From: Spirochaetaceae bacterium
GTDB lineage: Bacteria; Spirochaetota; Spirochaetia; SZUA-6; Bin103
Length of the DNA: 32,962 nucleotides
NCBI GenBank assembly: GCA_028821475.1
Contig: JAPPGB010000134.1
Span: 1-32,962 of the forward strand
Direction: 5' to 3'
The position numbers and the translations under genes were made by a program. The notes beneath the pieces are model-generated. The model did no database searches. It was given only the letters and a program-made list of their open reading frames with translations, and was not told the origin of the DNA. How positions within the stretch are numbered: position 1 is the stretch's first letter; each line of letters begins with the position of its first letter. Positions 6,990 through 23,826 of the stretch are shown piece by piece.

Positions 6990-7796
6990 TCATCGTACTC
7001 CTTCCGGGTTCAGCCGCGGGAACAGACGTCCCGCGTTGGCGGTGGTTTGCAGAGCGATCTGCTCGGTGTCGGTGGCGCGCACCGCCGCCAGGCGCAGGGC
7101 GATGTGGCGCAGCAGAGCCGGTTCGTTGCGGCGCCCGCGCAGCGGTTCCGGGGCCAGGTAGGGAGCGTCGGTCTCCAGCACCAGGCGGTCCGCGGGGGCG
7201 GCGGCGGCCACCGCACGCAGCTCGTCGGAGCGGCGGAAGGTGAGCATGCCGCCGATACCCAGGTAGAACCCGGCGCCGAGCGCGAAGTCGGCGGCGGCGG
7301 GTCCGGCGCTGAACGCGTGCAGCACGCCGGGCGGCCGCGGCAGTGCCGCGCGTTCGCCCCAGGCGCGCAACCGCTCCAGCAGTTTGCCGGTGGCCTCGCG
7401 GTTGTGCAGGATCACCGGCAGGCCGGCGGCGGCGGCCAGGTCGAGCTGGGCATCGAGCCAGCGTGCCTGCAGCGCCGGGTCCGGCCCGCGGAAGAAGTCG
7501 AGGCCGATCTCGCCGACGGCCACCACCGCGGGATTGGCGGTGAGTGCCTGCAGTGCGAGTATCGCCGCCTGCAGGCGGCCCGCCTGCGCGCACCACAGCG
7601 GATGCACGCCGACGGCAACGCCGATGCCGGGGTAGAGCGCGGCCAGCTCGGCGGCGGCGCGCGCACTCGCCAGCCCGGTGGCCGGGATCAGTACCCCGGT
7701 AACGCCGGCCGCGCCGGCGCGCGCCACCACTTCGTCGCGGTCGCCGGCGAAGCGCGCGTCGTCCAGGTGGCAGTGGGTGTCGACCAAGGCGCTCAC
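6990..7796 (-). CDS. tatD: TatD-family metal-dependent hydrolase (DNase)
   Basis: This 268-residue protein is a TatD-family TIM-barrel metal-dependent hydrolase, a family with 3'-5' exonuclease and quality-control roles in the cytoplasm. All metal-site elements are visible: DTHCHLDD (His8, His10), GEIGLDFFRG (Glu), VILHNREA (His), GVLHAFSAGP (His), and LETDAPYLAPEPLRGRRNEP (Asp). The length is typical. The GTG at 7796 is the start; its first bases form a GTGA overlap with the stop codon of the upstream sugar kinase gene (7793), so translation is probably coupled. Despite the name it has no link with the neighbouring Tat (TRAP) genes. It ends just before a DNA repeat that separates it from tatT. 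Confidence 0.9.
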   Translation of the reverse strand: MSALVDTHCHLDDARFAGDRDEVVARAGAAGVTGVLIPATGLASARAAAELAALYPGIGVAVGVHPLWCAQAGRLQAAILALQALTANPAVVAVGEIGLDFFRGPDPALQARWLDAQLDLAAAAGLPVILHNREATGKLLERLRAWGERAALPRPPGVLHAFSAGPAAADFALGAGFYLGIGGMLTFRRSDELRAVAAAAPADRLVLETDAPYLAPEPLRGRRNEPALLRHIALRLAAVRATDTEQIALQTTANAGRLFPRLNPEGVR

Positions 7797-14226: not shown

Positions 14227-14395
14227 CCTCCGTCTACCGGCGCCGCGCCGAGACGACTGACGGCGCCGCACGGAGACGGATCACACCAGCCGGTCGTGCC
14301 GGCGGCCGCGGCAAGCAACCATCAGATGCAGCTGCATGCAGAGTCGGGCGAGAGCCAGGCCGCCACCCGAATCGGATGGATCAGCGGGCCTGGTA

Positions 14396-14977
14396 TCAGA
14401 AAACTGCGACGGTGGGGAGGTCGGCAAGCAGGGATTCCGGGAAGCGGAGGTAGGTGACCTGCTGCCAGCGGTGCGGGATGAACATGTGCACGGTGCCGCG
14501 GTCGATGAACAGGTCGATGTAGGAACACTGGTGGTTCCGGAACGGGGTGTCGAACGTGGGCTCGAGCGCGTTGGCGAGCAGGAAGCGCGGCGCGGACCAG
14601 GAGCGCCCGCCGTCCGATGACAGGGCAACCCAGAGTTCCGAGCGGTCGGCCATCAACTCCGGCTTGGTGCCGTCGAGGCCGGTGTTGTCGAGGTCGTGAT
14701 GCCGGTTGTGGTGAAAGGCGGCCAGGGTGGCGCCGTCCGACAGCATGAACAGCATCGGCGGCGCGTCCGGGTGGACCAGCGGCGAGGGCGCCGGATAGCT
14801 CCAGCTCCTGCCGTCGTCCATGCTGCGCGCCTGCCACAGGTGGCCCTCGGGCGAGCGCACCATCAGCAGCACCTCGCCGCCGCCGAGGTCGATGGGACGG
14901 CCTTCGTCCAGCCTCCCGAACCCGCTCGCGAACCAGCCGCCGGGATGCGAACGCCGGAAGCGCGGCGGACGACGGCA
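14396..14977 (-). pseudogene. 5'-truncated sialidase-like (BNR/Asp-box) gene
   Basis: The minus frame encodes the C-terminal half of an exo-alpha-sialidase-like beta-propeller protein. There are two Asp-box-type repeats, SMDDGRSWSYP and SSDGGRSWSAP. Also typical are PPMLFMLSDGATLAAFHHNRH, SYIDLFIDRGTVHMFIPHRWQ and a terminal TYLRFPESLL. The conserved reading continues upstream (FGRLDEGRPIDLGGGEVLLMV) to an in-frame TAG at 14978-14980 with no ATG; the only usable start is GTG 14872, giving 158 residues. Family members have about 350-400 residues, so the first half of the propeller and its catalytic residues are missing. The break lies within 250 bases of the defence island, which may have replaced the missing part. 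I could not find the other half in the window. Confidence 0.65.
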
Positions 14978-15202
14978 CTATGGTGTGCCGAAGCACCGAC
15001 TCGAAGGCTCGCTCAAGCTGTACCACACTCCGCCCGCGGTCCGCGGGGCCGGTAGCCGTAGCGCGCGTTCGCCCGCAGCCCGCGGCAGTTGTATGGGCCG
15101 TGCGCGGCGCTGAGCATGACCGTACCTGTGGTGGGCACCGCGATCAGCAACGCCCGATTCGCCCGGCCCGCGCTTGCGCGTATAATCGAGTTGGATGCTG
15201 AC
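14978..15202. other. Left edge of the defence island, no gene assigned
   Basis: This stretch lies between the broken sialidase gene and the methyltransferase. It holds a good -10 hexamer close to its right end. On the minus strand a frame at 15013-15243 reads AHGPYNCRGLRANARYGYR in its middle, but I recognise no family in it and it overlaps the methyltransferase start, so no gene is called. Confidence 0.35.
15181..15186 (+). promoter_or_regulatory. Putative -10 box for the methyltransferase-nuclease pair
   Basis: A perfect TATAAT lies 16 bases before the methyltransferase ATG at 15203, in otherwise GC-rich DNA where such a hexamer is unusual. The -35 region 17 bases upstream (TTCGCC) is weak. 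If used, the transcript would start about 10 bases before the ATG, almost leaderless. Confidence 0.4.
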
Positions 15203-16183
15203 ATGCTTGAGCTCGCCCCTCGAAATCGCACGATCACATGCACAGCGGCGGAACGGGAGCAACTCGTACACCGCGTCTTGCGACTGGATCACCCTGTCTC
15301 GCGTCGTGAGGTGGCAGGGCGGATTGTCGGCGGCGACATCTTCTCCGTCGCCCGGTACCTGCCCTCCTCGGTCGTCGACCTGCTGATCCTCGATCCTCCA
15401 TACAACATCACCAAGCAATACGGCGGGAGCACTTTCAGGAAGAGACCGGCAGACGAGTATCGCGACTGGTTTCAGGGTCTGATCGACCTGCTGATGCCAC
15501 TGATGAAGCCGGACGCGACACTGTATGTGTGCTCGGACTGGAGCACGTCGACGGTGATCTTTCCGATCCTGGAGACCTCCTTCCAGGTGAGGAACCGAAT
15601 CACCTGGGAACGCGACAAGGGCCGCGGCGCGAAGCGCAACTGGAAGAACAACACAGAAGACATCTGGTTCTGCACCCGGTCGGACCGCTTCCACTTCGAC
15701 CTGGGAGCGGTGAAACTGAAGCGCCGGGTGCTGGCACCCTACCGCGTGAACGGAGAGCCGAAGGACTGGTCTGAGGACCAGGATGGCAGATTCCGCCTGA
15801 CCCACCCTTCCAACATCTGGACCGACATCACCGTGCCGTTCTGGTCGATGCCGGAGAACACCGACCATCCGACTCAGAAGCCGGAGAAACTGATGGCGAA
15901 GCTGATCCTGGCGAGTTCCAAGCCCGGCGACAGCGTGTTCGACCCGTTTCTCGGCAGCGGTACCACCGCGGTCGTAGCGGAAAAGCTGTCGCGCCGCTGG
16001 TGCGGCGTCGAGATCGATGCCGAGTACCAGTGCCTGGCACTCAAGCGCCTCGCGGCCGCCAAGACCGATCCATCGATCCAGGGCTACGCCGACGGCGTGT
16101 TCTGGGACCGTAACGCACTCCCCGCCCGCACGCCGCTCGGCGTGGCGCACAACAACAACGGCCAGTCGGATCTGTTTTCATGA
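15203..16183 (+). CDS. Site-specific DNA methyltransferase (N4/N6, beta class) of a restriction-modification pair
   Basis: This 326-residue S-adenosylmethionine-dependent enzyme methylates an exocyclic amino group of DNA. The catalytic motif LILDPPYN (DPPY at 64-67) comes before the target-recognition part, and the SAM-binding motif FDPFLGSGTT (247-255) comes near the C-terminus. That order defines the beta class. Other family features are ITWERDKGRGAKRNWKNNTEDIWF, RVLAPYRVNGEPKDW and FWSMPENTDHPTQKPEKL. The ATG at 15203 begins LELAPRNRTI, as in relatives; upstream starts would add residues encoded by the promoter region. The stop overlaps the next gene by 4 bases (ATGA), tying it to the PLD-fold nuclease. 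It should protect the host DNA from that nuclease. The recognition sequence cannot be inferred. Confidence 0.88.
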   Translation: MLELAPRNRTITCTAAEREQLVHRVLRLDHPVSRREVAGRIVGGDIFSVARYLPSSVVDLLILDPPYNITKQYGGSTFRKRPADEYRDWFQGLIDLLMPLMKPDATLYVCSDWSTSTVIFPILETSFQVRNRITWERDKGRGAKRNWKNNTEDIWFCTRSDRFHFDLGAVKLKRRVLAPYRVNGEPKDWSEDQDGRFRLTHPSNIWTDITVPFWSMPENTDHPTQKPEKLMAKLILASSKPGDSVFDPFLGSGTTAVVAEKLSRRWCGVEIDAEYQCLALKRLAAAKTDPSIQGYADGVFWDRNALPARTPLGVAHNNNGQSDLFS

Positions 16184-17379
16184 AGTCGCAAGCACAACCG
16201 CGCTCTTTTCGTTTGGTCGACCGTGGGTGGGCCGCGGAGTTGATCGATGGCGCACGCGAGGTGCCGGGGGAACTCAGGATCGTCTGTCCGTTCATCAAGG
16301 AACGTGCTCTCGACCGCCTGCTGCAACTGGGTTCCAGGGACATCCGCGTTATCACCCGATTCAACCTAGCTGACTTCGCTGACGGAGTAAGCGACATCGC
16401 GGCGTTGCGGAACCTGCTACGCGCCGGGGCGGCGGTCCGGGGGATACGCAACCTCCATGCGAAGCTCTATCTGTTCGGCGAGCACCGGGCGATCGTAGCT
16501 TCGGCGAATCTCACCGAGGCAGGTCTCCGGCACAACTCGGAGCTCGGCGTGGTAACCAACGACGCTTCGGAGGTTCGAGAGTGCCGGGGTTACTTCGATG
16601 ACCTGTGGAGCCGAGGTGGCGACAATCTTCGTCGTGACCAACTCGATTTGTGGGACGGACAAATCAAGCGCCACCTTGTGTCGGGATGGACCGAGACAAC
16701 AGGCGCGCTTGATGACTTCGGGGTTGACGCCGGTCTCGACGACGTGCCACGCGTCTGGATCACAGCAACTTTCGAGGATGTGCCACAGGCGTTCGTAAAG
16801 CTCCTCGGTGAGAGTAGTAATCGAGCCGCTCTGTCACTATCCACAGTCGAGGGAATCGTTCGGTCTTGTTGTCATTGGGCCGTTGGCTATCCAGCGAAGA
16901 AGCGACCCAGGAGCGTGGAGGATGGGGCGGCGATGTTCATCTCACGGCTTGTCGAGGGATCCGATTCACGTGTTTTCGGCGTGGCCACCGCAATGAAGCA
17001 CGTCCCGGGTCGCGATGATGCCACCGAGCATGACATCGAGCTCCGCCCGTGGAAGGAAAACTGGCCCCGTTACATTCGCATCCATCATCCTGAATTCGTT
17101 GCCGGCACGTTGGCTAACGGCATATCGCTCTCCGAGTTGATGGACAGTCTGGGAGCCGATTCGTTCGCTTCCACCAAGCGGAACAAGGAACGTGGTCACG
17201 GCAACCAGAATCCCCGACGCGCGCTTATGCAACAGCCCGCCGTGAAGCTGTCCGAGAACGGCTACGCATGGCTCAATGAACGGCTCCAGAAGGCATTCAA
17301 GGAGCATGGCAGGGTGCCTGCCTCTGAGTTGAGGAAACTGGACCAACCGGGACTCGCGCCAGACTGGCGATCCGAATAA
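16180..17379 (+). CDS. Phospholipase-D-fold nuclease, likely restriction endonuclease
   Basis: This 399-residue protein has an N-terminal PLD-like nuclease domain. It shows the motif HAKLYLFGEHRAIVASANLT, with His93, Lys95, Ser108 and Asn110 in the HxK...SxN pattern of single-motif PLD nucleases. Such proteins dimerise to form one active site, as in BfiI. Residues 33-60 (RIVCPFIKERALDRLL...IRVITRF) are the preceding strands of the fold. The C-terminal 250 residues have no motif I recognise and may recognise the DNA target. The ATG overlaps the methyltransferase stop (ATGA), so both are made together, as expected for a restriction-modification system. PLD-fold restriction enzymes are less common than PD-(D/E)XK ones. 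The role is inferred from fold and context. Confidence 0.75.
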   Translation: MKSQAQPRSFRLVDRGWAAELIDGAREVPGELRIVCPFIKERALDRLLQLGSRDIRVITRFNLADFADGVSDIAALRNLLRAGAAVRGIRNLHAKLYLFGEHRAIVASANLTEAGLRHNSELGVVTNDASEVRECRGYFDDLWSRGGDNLRRDQLDLWDGQIKRHLVSGWTETTGALDDFGVDAGLDDVPRVWITATFEDVPQAFVKLLGESSNRAALSLSTVEGIVRSCCHWAVGYPAKKRPRSVEDGAAMFISRLVEGSDSRVFGVATAMKHVPGRDDATEHDIELRPWKENWPRYIRIHHPEFVAGTLANGISLSELMDSLGADSFASTKRNKERGHGNQNPRRALMQQPAVKLSENGYAWLNERLQKAFKEHGRVPASELRKLDQPGLAPDWRSE

Positions 17380-17546
17380 CGTGGTTGACGGCAGGCACCG
17401 AAGAGCGGTCCGGCGCCTTACCGCCCGTCGCGGCAGTGCCTTGACGGTGCGGCCACGGGATAGCCGACTTTCGCAACTGATTAGAGTAGAGGAAGAGGAT
17501 CGGGAAGCCGTACCGGATGGATAGCGGCGTTGTTAGGTCGGTCTGC

Positions 17547-17552
17547 TATGAT
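17547..17552 (+). promoter_or_regulatory. Possible -10 box before the type IIG gene
   Basis: TATGAT (one mismatch from TATAAT) lies 43 bases before the ATG at 17596, in the 216-base gap after the PLD nuclease gene. No good -35 element is visible at the usual spacing. It suggests, weakly, that the type IIG gene has its own promoter. Confidence 0.25.
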
Positions 17553-17595
17553 GGCACACCAAGTCGAATCCAAAGCCTCCGCTGAAGGGACCATC

Positions 17596-20500
17596 ATGAA
17601 GGGCCAGCTATTCACTCAGTTCTTTCTCACCGACGGTATTCGCACGACTCCTGAGTGGGACGCCGCGGCCCCGAAGCTCGCCGACCTTCGCCGTGAACTG
17701 GGGAGCGTGCACGAGCGGTTCGTGGCGTTGCGGCAGCCGAATGAGGCGGTGACCGAGCACGCCTTGATTCGGCCCATCATGGAACTGCTCGGTTGGAGTG
17801 AGTACTTGCCGCAGCAGGCGGCCGCCGGTCACGAGGATGTCCCTGACCATTTGCTGTTCGCTGACGCGGCGGCCAAAGCGCGCGCTACCGCTCGGGGAAA
17901 TTCGGACGAGCGCTTTCAGGACGCCCTGATCGTGCAGGAGAGCAAACGGTTCGGGCTCGCGCTCGATCAACGCGACCGGACCGACGGGCATCGCGCCGGC
18001 ACTCCGCACGGCCAGATGCTGCGCTACCTGACGACCGCCGACGTCGCCTCCGAGGGGCGCATCCGGTTCGGCATCCTCACCAACGGCAGCGTGTGGCGGT
18101 TGTACGACCGGCGCGCACGCCCGCGGGCAAGCGGGTTCTTCGAGGCCGACCTCGCCGATCTGCTCCAGGCGGGCAACGAGGATGGCCTGCGCGCTTTCCT
18201 TCTGTTGTTCGGTCGCGACTCGTTTACCCTGCAAGGAACGGCGACCACGACCTTCCTCGAAGCCGCCCTCGCGGAAGGCCGGCGCTACGAGGAGTCGGTC
18301 GCACAGGATCTCTCCATGGTAGTGTTCGAGCGGGTCTTCCCTCGGTTGGTGGGGGCGATCTCAGACGCCACCGGGGCCGCCGAGGACCAGAACCTGGCCG
18401 AAGCTCGTTCGGCGGCACTCATCTTCCTGTATCGGCTGTTGTTCTTGCTGTACGCCGAGGATCGCGGGCTGCTGCCCGTCAATGACACCAGGTACGACGA
18501 CTACGGCTTGCGCAAGCGGGTGCGCGAGGACGTGGCGCGCCGCATGGCCGAGGAAGACGCGTTCTCCGCGACGGCCGGACACTACTACAACCGTCTGACC
18601 GAGCTGTTCCGCCAAATCCACCAGGGCGACATGTCGATCGGTCTGCCACCCTACAACGGAGGCCTGTTCGCACCCGATGCGGCACCGATCCTGGAGCGTA
18701 TCCGGCTGCCCGACACGGTAGTCGCGAAGATCATCTACGACCTCAGCCACACCGCCGCGCGAGCACCGGAGAACGGGTTCCGGAGCTTCGTCAACTATCG
18801 CGACATGTCGGTGCAGCAACTAGGCTCCATCTACGAGCGCCTGCTGGAGCGGGAACCATCCCGCGCCCCCGATGGCTCGGTTGAGATTCGGCTCGACGCG
18901 TACGCCCGGAAGGACAGCGGCAGCTTCTATACACCGCAAGAGTTGGTGGACCTGGTCATCGACCAGACCCTGAAACCACTCGCGGAGGAGCGGCTGCGGG
19001 CATTCGAGGCCCGGGCGCGTGAACTGGCTGGAGATCGGCGCTCCAAAGCCGAGCGGAGGGAGGAACTGGCGCGCGTCGACCCCGCGGAAGCGGTGCTTCG
19101 GCTCAAGGTGCTGGATCCCGCGATGGGTAGCGGTCACTTCCTGGTCACCGCGGTGGACTTCCTGTCGGACTACATCGCGGAACTGATCGAGTACGTACCC
19201 GGCGTGCCGCGGTGGCTGGAGGGCGAGTACGAGTCGCCGCTGGTGGCGCGGATCGCGGAGACTCGGCGCGGAATCCTGCTTCGGGCGCAGGACGGCAACT
19301 GGATCATCGACGTGGCTCAACTCACCGACCAGGCAATTGTCCGGCGTATGGTGCTCAAGCGCTGCATCTACGGCGTCGACAAGAACCGCCTGACCGTGGA
19401 GCTGGCGAAGGTCTCCCTATGGTTGCACAGCTTCACCGTGGGTGCACCGCTGTCGTTCCTCGACCATCACCTCAGGTGCGGCGATTCGCTGGTTGGCATC
19501 CGCGTGCGGGATGCGATCCGGGAGCTGGATCGGCTCGGTGGATTGTTTGCCGCATCGGCGATGGCAGGAGCGGAGGTCGCGGCCGAGGGGATGGCGCGGA
19601 TCGAGGAGATGTCCGATGCCGACGTGGTGGAGGTGCACGAGTCGGCTACCGTGTTCCACGACGTGGAGGCGACCACGGCCGACCTGAGAGGTTTGCTTGA
19701 CTGCCTGTGCGGGCTGCAGTGGATGACCGCCGGCATGAAACACAAAGCGCGCTCCCAATACGAGACGCCGCTTGCCGAAGCGCTCAGCCACAACCCGACC
19801 GATGCATACCGGATTCTGGCGCACGGGCCGGATTCATTCCTCCGCGGCGACGCTGGCGCCGATCCCGATCGCTTGGCGACGCTACGTACGCGCTGGCAGG
19901 AAGCCCGGGCCATCGCGAGGCAAGAGGAATTCCTGCACTGGGAGGCCGCCTTCCCCGGGGTGTGGCGGGACTGGCAGAGTGGTCGGCCCGAGGGAGGCTT
20001 CGACGCGGTGATCGGCAATCCTCCCTGGGACCGCATCAAGCTGCAGGAAGTGGAGTGGTTCGCGACACGCGCGTCGGACATCGCGCACGCCACCACCGCC
20101 GCTGCACGGCGGGCTGCCATCCGCCGGTTGCGTGAGCGGGGCGAGCCGCTGGCGGCCCAATTTGACGCTGCCAAGGAGCGCGCCGACCAGCTCGGCCGCG
20201 TGGTCCGTGCGTGTGGAGCCTTCCCGTTGCTGGGTGGCGGCGACATCAACCTCTACTCGCTGTTCGTCGAACGCGCCATGAGCCTGATCAAGCCGGACGG
20301 ACTGGTAGGACTCCTCACCCCGTCCGGAATCTACGCCGACAAGACCGCCGCCCGCTTCTTCCAGAGCCTCTCCACCACCGGCAGAATCGGCGGCCTGTTC
20401 GACTTCGAGAACCGCCGCCTTGGAACCGACTTGCCACCGTTCTTCCCGGATGTCGATTCGCGGTTCAAGTTCTGCGCCCTGGTGTTCGGCGGCGAGGAAC

Positions 20501-21639
20501 GCCGATTCGACCAAACCATGTGCGCCTTCTTCCTGTACGACACCCGGGAGGTGGATGACCCGCAGCGTTGCTTCCCGCTGACGCCGAGCGACTTCTCCCG
20601 CGTCAACCCGAACACCGGCACCGCGCCGGTGTTCCGCACCCGCCGAGACGCCGACATTACGCGTCGCATCTACGAGACCCATTCGGTGCTCGTAGACCGC
20701 TCAGGCACCGAGGAACGCCGCGCTTGGCCGGTGCGCTACCATCGGATGTTTGACATGACCAATGATTCCGGTCTCTTCCGGACCGCGGCGCAACTCGACG
20801 CCGACGGGTTCTACCGCGTCACGGGCAACCGATGGAAGAAGGGTGACGAATTGTACCTTCCGCTGTATGAGGGAAAGATGGTACAGGCGTTCGACCACCG
20901 CGCCGCTAGCATCACCGTCAACCGTAGCAACCTGAACAGGCCCGCCCAACCACGAGTGGCCACCGCGCAGCAGCACACCGATCCCGAGTGGCTTCCGACC
21001 CCCCAGTTCTGGGTTCGAGCCGATGCGTGTGATTGGCCAGCCAATCTCGGTTGGGCCGTAGCATTCAAGGATGTCACCGCTCCGACGAATGTACGCACCA
21101 TGATCGCGAGTCTGGTGCCCTGCGCTGGCTTCAGTAACACGTTGCCGTTGCTCTTGCCACTTCCCAAAGAATCGAATGCTTACCGTGAGCACGTCTGGCT
21201 TCTCGCTGCCTGCCTCAATTCCACCGCATACGATTTCGTTGCCCGTCAGAAAGTTCAAGGGCAACACCTAAATTGGTTCGTCGTGGAACAGCTCCCTGTC
21301 GTCGCCCAACCTGAATACAATCGACGCTTCGGCGGAACGACCGCCCGAAATCTGGTCCGCGACCACTTACTGCAGCTCGCCTACACCGCTCACGACATGG
21401 CGCCCCTCGCGCGGGATCTGGACTATGACGGGCCCCCGGTCACGTGGAACCCTGAGCAGCGACGCCACCTCCGTGCGCGGCTCGACGCCCTCTATTTCCA
21501 CCTTTATGGCCTGTCCCGCAAGGAAGCCTCCTACGTCCTGGACACTTTCCCTATCGCCCGTCGCCGTGACCAAGCCGCCTACGGCACCTATGAGCAGCGC
21601 ATCTTCTCGATTCACACGATCAAGAATCAAGCTCTGTGA
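17596..21639 (+). CDS. Eco57I-like type IIG restriction-modification enzyme
   Basis: This 1347-residue protein joins nuclease, methyltransferase and target recognition. The N-terminal region has a PD-(D/E)XK-like site: HALIRPIMELLGW, then PDHLLF (Pro83-Asp84) and VQESKR (Glu115, Lys117). The methyltransferase core has FYTPQELVDLVID, motif I VLDPAMGSGHFLV from Asp507, IYGVDKN and motif IV VIGNPPWDRIKL from Asn808 (gamma class, adenine N6). The C-terminal 350 residues carry target-recognition-like sequence and finish with RLDALYFHLYGLSRKEASYVLDTFP, typical of these enzymes. The ATG 17596 has GAAGGGA upstream; a TTG at 17530 is less likely. BREX PglX and DISARM methyltransferases look similar, but their partner genes are absent here. 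The last 273 bases overlap the SIR2 gene on the other strand. Confidence 0.85.
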   Translation: MKGQLFTQFFLTDGIRTTPEWDAAAPKLADLRRELGSVHERFVALRQPNEAVTEHALIRPIMELLGWSEYLPQQAAAGHEDVPDHLLFADAAAKARATARGNSDERFQDALIVQESKRFGLALDQRDRTDGHRAGTPHGQMLRYLTTADVASEGRIRFGILTNGSVWRLYDRRARPRASGFFEADLADLLQAGNEDGLRAFLLLFGRDSFTLQGTATTTFLEAALAEGRRYEESVAQDLSMVVFERVFPRLVGAISDATGAAEDQNLAEARSAALIFLYRLLFLLYAEDRGLLPVNDTRYDDYGLRKRVREDVARRMAEEDAFSATAGHYYNRLTELFRQIHQGDMSIGLPPYNGGLFAPDAAPILERIRLPDTVVAKIIYDLSHTAARAPENGFRSFVNYRDMSVQQLGSIYERLLEREPSRAPDGSVEIRLDAYARKDSGSFYTPQELVDLVIDQTLKPLAEERLRAFEARARELAGDRRSKAERREELARVDPAEAVLRLKVLDPAMGSGHFLVTAVDFLSDYIAELIEYVPGVPRWLEGEYESPLVARIAETRRGILLRAQDGNWIIDVAQLTDQAIVRRMVLKRCIYGVDKNRLTVELAKVSLWLHSFTVGAPLSFLDHHLRCGDSLVGIRVRDAIRELDRLGGLFAASAMAGAEVAAEGMARIEEMSDADVVEVHESATVFHDVEATTADLRGLLDCLCGLQWMTAGMKHKARSQYETPLAEALSHNPTDAYRILAHGPDSFLRGDAGADPDRLATLRTRWQEARAIARQEEFLHWEAAFPGVWRDWQSGRPEGGFDAVIGNPPWDRIKLQEVEWFATRASDIAHATTAAARRAAIRRLRERGEPLAAQFDAAKERADQLGRVVRACGAFPLLGGGDINLYSLFVERAMSLIKPDGLVGLLTPSGIYADKTAARFFQSLSTTGRIGGLFDFENRRLGTDLPPFFPDVDSRFKFCALVFGGEERRFDQTMCAFFLYDTREVDDPQRCFPLTPSDFSRVNPNTGTAPVFRTRRDADITRRIYETHSVLVDRSGTEERRAWPVRYHRMFDMTNDSGLFRTAAQLDADGFYRVTGNRWKKGDELYLPLYEGKMVQAFDHRAASITVNRSNLNRPAQPRVATAQQHTDPEWLPTPQFWVRADACDWPANLGWAVAFKDVTAPTNVRTMIASLVPCAGFSNTLPLLLPLPKESNAYREHVWLLAACLNSTAYDFVARQKVQGQHLNWFVVEQLPVVAQPEYNRRFGGTTARNLVRDHLLQLAYTAHDMAPLARDLDYDGPPVTWNPEQRRHLRARLDALYFHLYGLSRKEASYVLDTFPIARRRDQAAYGTYEQRIFSIHTIKNQAL

Positions 21640-23826
21640 TACAAAGTAGAAGTGTTCAGCATCACGAAGTCCGGGAACTTCGTAATCCCCTGACCTTAGG
21701 TTACTGAGAAGCATCGACACTTCAGCTTCCGCTTCTACTTGAAGCTCCGACCGATAGGTACCACGATCCACGCGTGCCGTGTGTATTTCGACCTTGGTCT
21801 GCTCGACATTACCGATGTCCGCCGAGCCAAATCCTGGAGATCGTGACATGTCGACCACCTGCAGCCCAAGACTCGCTACTTGCTCTTCAAATGCCGTCCG
21901 GCTGACTCGGTTACCACCGCATATGCGTGAAATGTACTCTCGAAAGGTTCCGACATCTCCGTCGGCTCGCAACCGAATATAACCGTCGAGGAATAGATTC
22001 TGTCGAAAGCTGCCCTTTACCAGCGCCGCGCGTAGCAGATCCAACGAACGCGAACCGCGTTCCTCCACAAAATGTAGGGCCCAGCTGAAATGGGACCAAG
22101 CTTCCCGCAGTAGCTTTGGTGTAGTATACAGCAAAGCGTCTTCGGCGGCTAGCATACGAAATAACTCATACGCGTGCGCGTGGTTGTGACAGCCGAGTGC
22201 GATCCGTGGGAGGATAACACTAGAGTCGCACAACCACAGCGTCTTGTGAAATATCTCTCGGCGCGTCTCACCGCAAGTCGGATCTAAACCAAGTAAGTGA
22301 TAAAGAAAGTACCCCTGCGACACCGAGGCAAGGTACCGCTTCTGTTGTTCGTTAGGCTCCACAAGGAACTCGTGCATCGCCTCGATGAACGCACCACGAA
22401 GCGGAGCTTCCTGTAGATATGCCGCTTGGTCCGCCACGTTCGCGAATACATCCGAAAGCTCGTGCGCACGGGGCGATTGATCGGAGAACACCTTGTTCGC
22501 GATCGTGGTTCCTCGGTCGGCGAAGCTGGAGACGATTGCCCTCTCGGCGAGAAGCTCGCACTGGTTCAGCTCGGACTCGTTGATATTGGAGAAGGATCTA
22601 GCAAGGGTAATGCGAAATTGGCCGTATGCTTGATCCAGCTCTATCTCACGCACCCGCTGAAATTCGGCGACTGTAGACCGTCCTTCGTCCGTGAGAGACA
22701 CCACATTGTCTGCGGTCAAGACGTGGCCGCTCGCGGAGAGTTGCGCTAAGGCGTCAGATATATGACCCTCGTAGCCGTCTCTTTGGCGCAACACTGCGTT
22801 CAACATGGGCAGCTCGCCGAGTTTGGTGACTTGCGTGCACTCTAACGGAGATGCGGCAAGTCCTGAGAGGATCAGCGGCGAGAGATAGTCCGTAGCAGTA
22901 ACGCCTTGGAGTCGCCTGTACAAGGAGATCGTCATCGCTGCGGAGGTCACATCTGCAGACTGCGGTGCCGTTGAGGGCGTGCCTGCGTGTCTCCGTCGCG
23001 AGACAATGAAACGATCGGCTGTCCTCAGTAGCCGGAGGAGTTCTGCATGATTACCGTCGTCATTTGGATATTGAACGAGGACTATATTGTACTGTTCGAA
23101 ATAGTCTTTCTCGTCAGCAAGTGTGAATCCAGTGCCGATCATATATATTGGCCGGGTCGGATCGCGTAACGATCTTGCCAACTTAAGAATCAAGCTGATG
23201 TCAGGGTCGTTTAGACTATGTCCAATTATCAACACGTCAAACATCGTGAAGATACGTAGTAAGCCGTCACGATAGTATTGTCCACCGGGTTCGATGTCGA
23301 GACGAGTGTAGTCTTCCGACGTAAGGATAAGTTCTCTCGGGTGGTTAAGGTCTGAGTGCAGCTTTTGGACAACACTACTCACTCCATCACGCCAGACATA
23401 GAAATCCTGTGGTCGGTTCCTGACCACGGCGAAGTGCTGGCCAATTGATGAGAGATGCTTGTGGATTTCGTCGTCATAGTTTGTTGTGAGGTAACAGGCA
23501 AACGGCCAGTTGGCAATTAGTCGGTAGATCGCTCCCGTCGTGGGTTGACTGGGTCTCAACAGAGGCCCAATGAGCTGTACCAACGCCTCTCGACTATTCT
23601 TTAGATCACGCTGGATTTGGCGGAAGAGGTGGGGATAGGTTCTTTCTCGGAGATGTTTATCGTAGGACGCGGGATCAACGTACTCGGGGCGAGTTTGAAG
23701 CTGTTCATATGACTGCCTAGCAAGATCGCTCCATGAAGGGTATCCCATTTCACAAGAGGGACCTGCTCCTACGAGTACCATACACCGGCCGGAGTTGATC
23801 TTTCGGATAAGTTCCTTATCAAACAC
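21367..23826 (-). CDS. SIR2-domain defence protein with winged-helix segment and unknown C-terminal region
   Basis: This 819-residue protein begins with a SIR2-like NAD-binding domain. It shows VLVGAGPSCEMGYPSW (residues 17-32), CYLTTNYDDE with Asn116, QKLHSDL with His157, and IIGHSLNDPDISLIL (201-215). In phage-defence SIR2 proteins these residues serve NAD hydrolysis that starves the infected cell. Residues about 340-385 resemble a winged helix (GHISDALAQLSASGHVLTADNVVSLTDEGR). The remaining 400 residues look mostly helical and match nothing I know; they may sense infection. The GTG at 23826 puts the GAG motif at the usual place. GC is far lower than around it (23 of 60 bases at 23041-23100), pointing to recent transfer. 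The last 90 residues are read from the antisense strand of the type IIG gene, so the C-terminus may be aberrant. Confidence 0.82.
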   Translation of the reverse strand: MFDKELIRKINSGRCMVLVGAGPSCEMGYPSWSDLARQSYEQLQTRPEYVDPASYDKHLRERTYPHLFRQIQRDLKNSREALVQLIGPLLRPSQPTTGAIYRLIANWPFACYLTTNYDDEIHKHLSSIGQHFAVVRNRPQDFYVWRDGVSSVVQKLHSDLNHPRELILTSEDYTRLDIEPGGQYYRDGLLRIFTMFDVLIIGHSLNDPDISLILKLARSLRDPTRPIYMIGTGFTLADEKDYFEQYNIVLVQYPNDDGNHAELLRLLRTADRFIVSRRRHAGTPSTAPQSADVTSAAMTISLYRRLQGVTATDYLSPLILSGLAASPLECTQVTKLGELPMLNAVLRQRDGYEGHISDALAQLSASGHVLTADNVVSLTDEGRSTVAEFQRVREIELDQAYGQFRITLARSFSNINESELNQCELLAERAIVSSFADRGTTIANKVFSDQSPRAHELSDVFANVADQAAYLQEAPLRGAFIEAMHEFLVEPNEQQKRYLASVSQGYFLYHLLGLDPTCGETRREIFHKTLWLCDSSVILPRIALGCHNHAHAYELFRMLAAEDALLYTTPKLLREAWSHFSWALHFVEERGSRSLDLLRAALVKGSFRQNLFLDGYIRLRADGDVGTFREYISRICGGNRVSRTAFEEQVASLGLQVVDMSRSPGFGSADIGNVEQTKVEIHTARVDRGTYRSELQVEAEAEVSMLLSNLRSGDYEVPGLRDAEHFYFVSQSLILDRVNREDALLIGAVGGLVTATGDRESVQDVGGFLAGQAIKVEIEGVEPRTEVASLLRVPRDRGPVIVQIPREGRHVVSGVGELQ

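Follow-up and report, generated by a model that had tools for sequence, protein, structure and literature searches.

Described systems closest to the SIR2-PIN family

SIR2 effectors and the back-up toxins of restriction loci are known separately. PrrC is a tRNA nuclease held in the PrrI type I complex until phage anti-restriction frees it (PMC3506569; PMC2610378), the linkage of Sir2 genes to type I restriction-modification (R-M) systems was noted already in 2012 (PMC3506569), and, according to a survey of back-up effectors in bacteriophage exclusion (BREX) systems, BREX loci carry embedded back-up suicidal effectors, PIN RNases included (PMC12839542). The subject of the present analysis is an open reading frame (ORF) at positions 21367-23826 (minus strand) of contig JAPPGB010000134.1 from a Spirochaetaceae bacterium, a stretch of 32,962 bases (hereinafter the window) that is one of the 183 contigs of a 5.7 Mb draft genome (G000). 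In the protein family to which this ORF belongs, an N-terminal SIR2 domain is followed by a winged helix, a helical linker and a PIN-fold domain, and we consider it probable (at roughly 0.6) that this rare SIR2-winged helix-PIN family (hereinafter SIR2-PIN) is a dual NADase-plus-RNase back-up abortive effector of DNA-modification defences. In the open-access literature we found neither a description of a protein with this predicted architecture nor a single family that occurs in both type I R-M and BREX operons.

The nearest SIR2 domain is that of ThsA, the SIR2-SLOG protein of the Thoeris system (PADLOC, version of 2023, 5e-22 over query residues 2-238; PDB entry 6lhx, 2e-10). However, the PADLOC match ends at query residue 238, which corresponds to position 230 of the 478 positions of the model, leaving the SLOG part of ThsA unmatched; no ThsB was found beside the window gene, and the C-terminal half consists here of a winged helix and a PIN domain. 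Membership in the ThsA family of Thoeris was accordingly rejected for want of a full-length match. DSR1 and DSR2 are likewise single long proteins with an N-terminal SIR2 domain, and a Foldseek search with the structural model of one relative (locus L021, see below) ranks DSR2 first because of that domain. Membership in these families was rejected as well, given NCBIfam scores of 18.9 bits (Dsr1) and 14.2 bits against a cut-off of 1400; the Dsr1 model matches window residues 5-130 only. A full-length match to the ThsA or DSR2 families, which the original prediction had proposed to look for, was thus not found, the similarity being confined to the SIR2 domain.

Among published architectures, the closest is that of the effector-TPR-GreA/B-C-PIN proteins (Kaur et al., 2021, PMC8195603), a family with SIR2 versions in which an N-terminal SIR2 domain and a C-terminal PIN domain are likewise combined in one polypeptide. 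These proteins are mostly stand-alone, whereas SIR2-PIN genes are found in operons and the L021 model lacks the FKBP-like beta domain. The Pfam family PIN-TPR-GreABC (PF20698) had no match at the SIR2-PIN loci of genomes G000, G497 and G559 at E<=10, and membership was rejected on this ground, although a true member is present elsewhere in G000. The latter is a 1363-aa open frame (G000:C118:5531-5866, L040) that matches PIN-TPR-GreABC above the cut-off and represents another predicted conflict-system protein.

In terms of operon setting, the family resembles PrrC of the PrrI system and RloC, translation-type toxins tied to type I R-M operons that are kept in reserve in case restriction fails (PMC3506569; PMC2610378). 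PrrC and RloC, however, combine an ABC-ATPase with a HEPN-type nuclease, in contrast to the SIR2 and PIN domains seen here; no ATPase was found. The likeness to the BREX back-up effectors lies in the presence of an extra suicidal effector within a BREX operon; the main text of the corresponding survey mentions neither SIR2 nor sirtuins (PMC12839542).

Relatives and domain architecture

A search with the C-terminal half of the window protein yielded a first relative, L010 (897 aa; residues 3-716, 26% identity, E 2e-72), and a second, L014 (888 aa); a genome-wide scan with a hidden Markov model (HMM) and a sequence pattern brought the number of relative loci to seven (L010, L014, L017, L019, L020, L021 and L022), to which a second, phylum-wide search with an eight-row profile added no further loci. 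(Labels of this form denote loci; L016 is the L010 locus, and L018 is the same locus as L014 and L015.) Intact relatives are ~890-920 aa long. The hosts include Spirochaetota, a Delta-proteobacterial Olavius symbiont, Planctomycetota, Nitrospirae and a metagenome-assembled genome titled alphaproteobacterial; among 393 sampled genomes, presumably of Spirochaetota, the gene is present in 2. In the phylogenetic tree, the window protein clusters with L019-L022, at identities of up to 52%, and a second clade (100/100) unites L010, L014 and L017. Plasmid and phage records contained no relatives of the C-terminal half (tblastn); the full window protein had no match in phage records, a SIR2-domain match only in viral contigs and, in plasmids, matches to SIR2-domain genes only, with 26-34% of the query covered among the matches listed.

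The domains of the window protein, on the minus strand, are as follows.

23002-23826, minus strand: SIR2 domain (residues 1-275) with G20xG22, N116, H157 and the GHSLNDPD motif, from Pfam SIR2_2, invariance in the family and Foldseek of the L021 model
22693-22896, minus strand: winged-helix-like segment (residues ~311-378), from the secondary structure of the AlphaFold model of L021, which has the same numbering
22246-22689, minus strand: all-helical linker (residues ~380-527), from the L021 AlphaFold model
21592-22245, minus strand: PIN-fold domain (residues ~528-745), 3'-truncated, from the L021 domain model, Foldseek, alignment and a check of the site

The SIR2 domain is recognised by Pfam SIR2_2 (1.6e-15; 57.9 bits against a cut-off of 24.5), by a sequence search of the PDB, in which the window protein matched ThsA, DSR2 and KomC, and by Foldseek, which matched the L021 model to the SIR2 domains of KomC, ThsA and DSR2. 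The catalytic residues N116 and H157 are invariant in all 8 family members, in agreement with the intact motifs reported in the original prediction. None of the libraries searched (Pfam, NCBIfam, PADLOC and PHROGs) contained a family that reaches past the SIR2 domain.

The full-length AlphaFold model of L021, built from an 8-row alignment (mean predicted local distance difference test, pLDDT, 68), shows the order SIR2 (1-275), winged helix (311-378), linker (380-527), a Rossmann-like domain (528-750) and a long lysine-rich helix. The winged-helix segment comprises helices 311-325, 333-338, 340-347 and 353-365 and strands 369-372 and 375-378. Because SIR2 matches dominated the Foldseek search with the whole model, the Rossmann-like domain was modelled alone (pLDDT 83; predicted template modelling score 0.81), and all its PDB matches with a probability of at least 0.4 belong to the PIN superfamily, namely VapC toxins (5ecw, 0.97), HARP RNase P, the PIN domain of RRP44, and AF1683 and PAE2754, which we take to be PIN-superfamily proteins as well. 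The top viral match of this model is a protein annotated as 'PIN like domain'. D534 directly follows the first strand and E575 lies in the helix after the second strand, as in PIN enzymes, whereas E700 and E702 belong to the helix that precedes the next core strand; D534 and E575 are present in 8/8 members, and E700 and E702 in all 7 members with coverage. PDB sequence searches with C-terminal profiles, as well as an hhalign comparison with a VapC beside L020, found nothing. The PIN assignment is therefore a structural one, sequence profiles having no PIN match of their own. According to the models, the uncharacterised C-terminal half consists of a winged helix and, beyond a helical linker, a PIN-fold (endoribonuclease-like) domain. 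The winged-helix-like segment had been correctly anticipated, and the ~400 residues of no recognised family indeed match no library family, yet they resolve into the helical linker and the PIN fold, which the original prediction had missed.

Genomic contexts of the relatives

In four loci, the SIR2-PIN gene is located in or adjoins an R-M or BREX operon. At L018, the genes hsdR-hsdM-bro-hsdS, identified with HMMs, are followed on the same strand after a gap of 22 bp by the SIR2-PIN gene, which ends the type I operon. At L016, hsdR begins 44 bases after the SIR2-PIN gene, and at L017, the SIR2-PIN gene lies 101 bases after hsdR. The fourth locus, L019, has the order pglX-SIR2PIN-brxH-pglZ-brxA, which is BREX type 3-like, with gaps of 1 bp to pglX and ~8 bp to brxH. 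At L021, a predicted two-gene defence module (PADLOC candidates PDC-M30A/B) lies downstream of the SIR2-PIN gene. The recurring context is therefore that of type I R-M and BREX operons, not that of type IIG genes, beside which a new architecture had been suggested. That the protein is a defence SIR2 whose C-terminal architecture had not been described is supported by the lack of a full-length library match, the retention of the catalytic pairs, Asn/His included, in all relatives, and the occurrence of relatives in restriction or BREX loci.

Two further genes were observed at these loci. The bro gene between hsdM and hsdS (L015 9249-10124) encodes an antirepressor-like Bro-N protein and is a PADLOC candidate (PDC-S13). 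At L020, the SIR2-PIN gene is closely followed by an ORF for a VapC-like PIN toxin (7340-7735).

State of the window gene

The window copy is truncated by a junction that also involves the neighbouring type IIG gene.

17530-21639, plus strand: type IIG restriction-methylase ORF (Eco57I 1.8e-19; PADLOC IIG/DrmMI)
21367-21591, minus strand: non-native tail of the SIR2 ORF (residues 746-819), antisense to the IIG 3' end, from the homology limit, the GC shift and the lack of a counterpart in SIR2 relatives
21590-21591, no strand: rearrangement (or assembly) junction cutting both convergent genes, from homology, GC and the absence of the missing 3' end from the genome

As an ORF, 21367-23826 on the minus strand was called correctly: it comprises 819 codons with a GTG start that agrees with the relatives (N terminus MFDKRLI). 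Its low-edge boundary, by contrast, does not hold, native SIR2 sequence being absent from 21367-21591. The native gene extends from residue 1 to residue ~745, and the final 74 codons are type IIG antisense, the convergent IIG ORF sharing the final 273 bases of the SIR2 ORF. This conclusion follows from the limit of IIG homology at 21590, the shift in GC and the end of the alignment with the relatives. In G054, a genome of the same genus, the IIG ortholog (locus L012; C terminus ...GTYRTRDLILAYMNALAAADTETIVAL) aligns up to window position 21590 only, beyond which it reads RTRDLILAYMNALAAADTETIVAL where the window has EQRIFSIHTIKNQAL, that is, SIR2 antisense; the final ~16 codons of the window IIG gene (21592-21639) are SIR2 antisense in place of ~24 native codons. 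The GC content is 52.8% for SIR2 residues 1-745 and 64.9% for residues 746-819, the same as in IIG (the local counts of 23/60 and 52/60 in the original prediction are exact), and the alignment of the SIR2 relatives to the window protein stops at REDAL (~residue 744). A G054 match to query residues 742-796, which seemed to be a homologue, proved to be the IIG gene read antisense and was discarded.

The two genes are thus joined tail-to-tail at ~21590, both 3'-truncated, and the window SIR2 protein lacks ~174 C-terminal residues that are present in the relatives, a truncation that the original prediction had overlooked. The missing 3' end was not found elsewhere in the genome of the window, where a single match is at chance level (E 0.047). 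Judging from the sequence, the joint near 21590/21591 would be a deletion or inversion, or an assembly joint, that truncates both genes.

Proposed function and alternative explanations

Two apparently active catalytic sites are combined in one SIR2-PIN chain. NAD+ hydrolysis is the activity expected of the N-terminal SIR2 domain in an intact relative, and RNA cleavage, perhaps of tRNA or mRNA, that expected of the C-terminal PIN domain, which precedes the lysine-rich helical tail. The effector would be silent as long as the restriction system is intact, or for want of a phage trigger, and would be released once a phage blocks restriction or restriction fails, in the manner of PrrC with PrrI. 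The architecture, the conserved catalytic residues, the operon contexts and the truncation of the window copy were observed directly, whereas both enzyme activities, the trigger and the silencing by R-M subunits are inferred. More tentatively, the dual-enzyme effector might guard the integrity of unrelated DNA-modification defences, being exchanged among defences such as type I R-M and BREX and firing on phage inhibition of restriction. If the family works in the way proposed, it would allow the long-standing notion of a functional coupling between immunity genes and suicide genes to be tested simply.

Several observations weigh against the back-up effector. The family has S/T at the position of the fourth canonical PIN acid, none of its 8 members matched a Pfam PIN-clan model better than by chance, and Foldseek of the L021 PIN model against the PDB returned nothing below E 0.001 (best E 0.19), so that the RNase activity is putative. 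Only 8 loci, including the window, are known; the genes of L020 and L022 are frameshifted, and both lie on short contigs without a clear R-M gene; the link to type I systems may be a single event because the three relatives involved form one clade; and the window gene is convergent, not co-directional, with IIG. The missing fourth acid, along with the location of L021, L020, L022 and the window copy outside type I or BREX operons, would fit an autonomous abortive-infection sensor, in which the half comprising the winged helix, the helical linker and the PIN domain senses phage RNA or DNA and turns on the SIR2 NADase, while the PIN domain binds without cutting and the restriction link reflects the clustering of genes in islands. 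The same is favoured by the fact that DSR2-type SIR2 proteins sense phage proteins via their C-terminal half. Nevertheless, the gaps of 1-22 bp within the hsd and BREX operons (L018, L019) are tighter than general island clustering, and the retention of D534, E575, E700 and E702 wherever aligned is unexpected in a dead PIN domain. This explanation appears somewhat unlikely, and although the stand-alone effector with its own sensor envisaged in the original prediction is possible, the evidence favours a back-up effector linked to DNA-modification systems. The tight operon placement, together with the coupling of toxin and immunity loci that has been proposed (PMC3506569), could also be read to mean that the protein is the core or toxin part of the adjoining restriction system, neutralised by an R-M subunit in a toxin-antitoxin-like manner and unleashed not by infection but when the operon is lost (post-segregational killing); this seems quite improbable, given that the partners vary by locus (type I, BREX, PDC-M30, IIG), with no common antitoxin among them.

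In the window copy, the SIR2 domain and D534, E575, E700 and E702 are kept but the last PIN strand and the lysine-rich tail are lost, so this copy is at best a SIR2-only remnant, with the PIN half probably broken or inactive. The chances are about even that the gene has decayed into a non-functional remnant without a role today, an explanation that concerns this copy and is compatible with the one proposed for the family: both the loss of the C-terminal residues that include the last PIN strand and the 3' truncation of the neighbouring IIG gene are consistent with decay, whereas 745 codons are still open with all SIR2 residues, which implies that the decay is recent or the SIR2 part is retained. 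A chimeric joint at 21590, produced in metagenome assembly from a gene that is really full length, would likewise count against the picture drawn here; the precise cut of both genes at the joint in a 183-contig draft is compatible with it, but with the missing 3' end nowhere else in the assembly, such a chimera is unlikely.

Neighbourhood of the window gene

Upstream of the IIG gene, the island contains two more genes of DNA modification and defence.

16180-17379, plus strand: PLD-family nuclease, DrmC-like (PADLOC PDLC02599 1e-133; Pfam PLDc_2)
15089-16183, plus strand: N6/N4 DNA methyltransferase (Pfam N6_N4_Mtase 5e-42)

Pfam and PADLOC thus confirm the restriction and DNA-modification neighbours that had been read from the sequence. 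A DISARM system was not recognised: DrmC-like and DrmMI-like genes are present, while MZB (DrmB-type) is absent from the window contig, its matches in the genome being confined to contigs C99, C73 and C149, and DrmA was not searched separately. Neither PADLOC nor Pfam matched a HerA or APAZ/pAgo partner in the SIR2 protein or the three island neighbours scanned, the other neighbours having been read as ORFs only.

In G054, the slot between IIG and HMG-CoA synthase is occupied by other genes and is accordingly a variable defence slot. These genes (L012 5795-8449) encode an SDH-type ClpP-like protease and a ThiF-family (E1-like) protein, the latter matching PADLOC E1-E2 models over part of its length. 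The damage to the IIG gene is not the same in the two genomes of the genus. The window gene (17530-21639) has lost its 3' end; the G054 gene (L012 9663-12110) has a disrupted frame and lacks the ~1.77 kb corresponding to window positions 19674-21444. The genome of the window also contains, at G000:C36:12265-12879 (L028), a second piece of IIG, an N-terminal duplicate that shares 86% identity with residues 40-244. At the island edge, the window contains a remnant of a BNR-repeat gene (~14322-15026), of which the G054 copy (L012 16130-17395) is intact across 421 aa.

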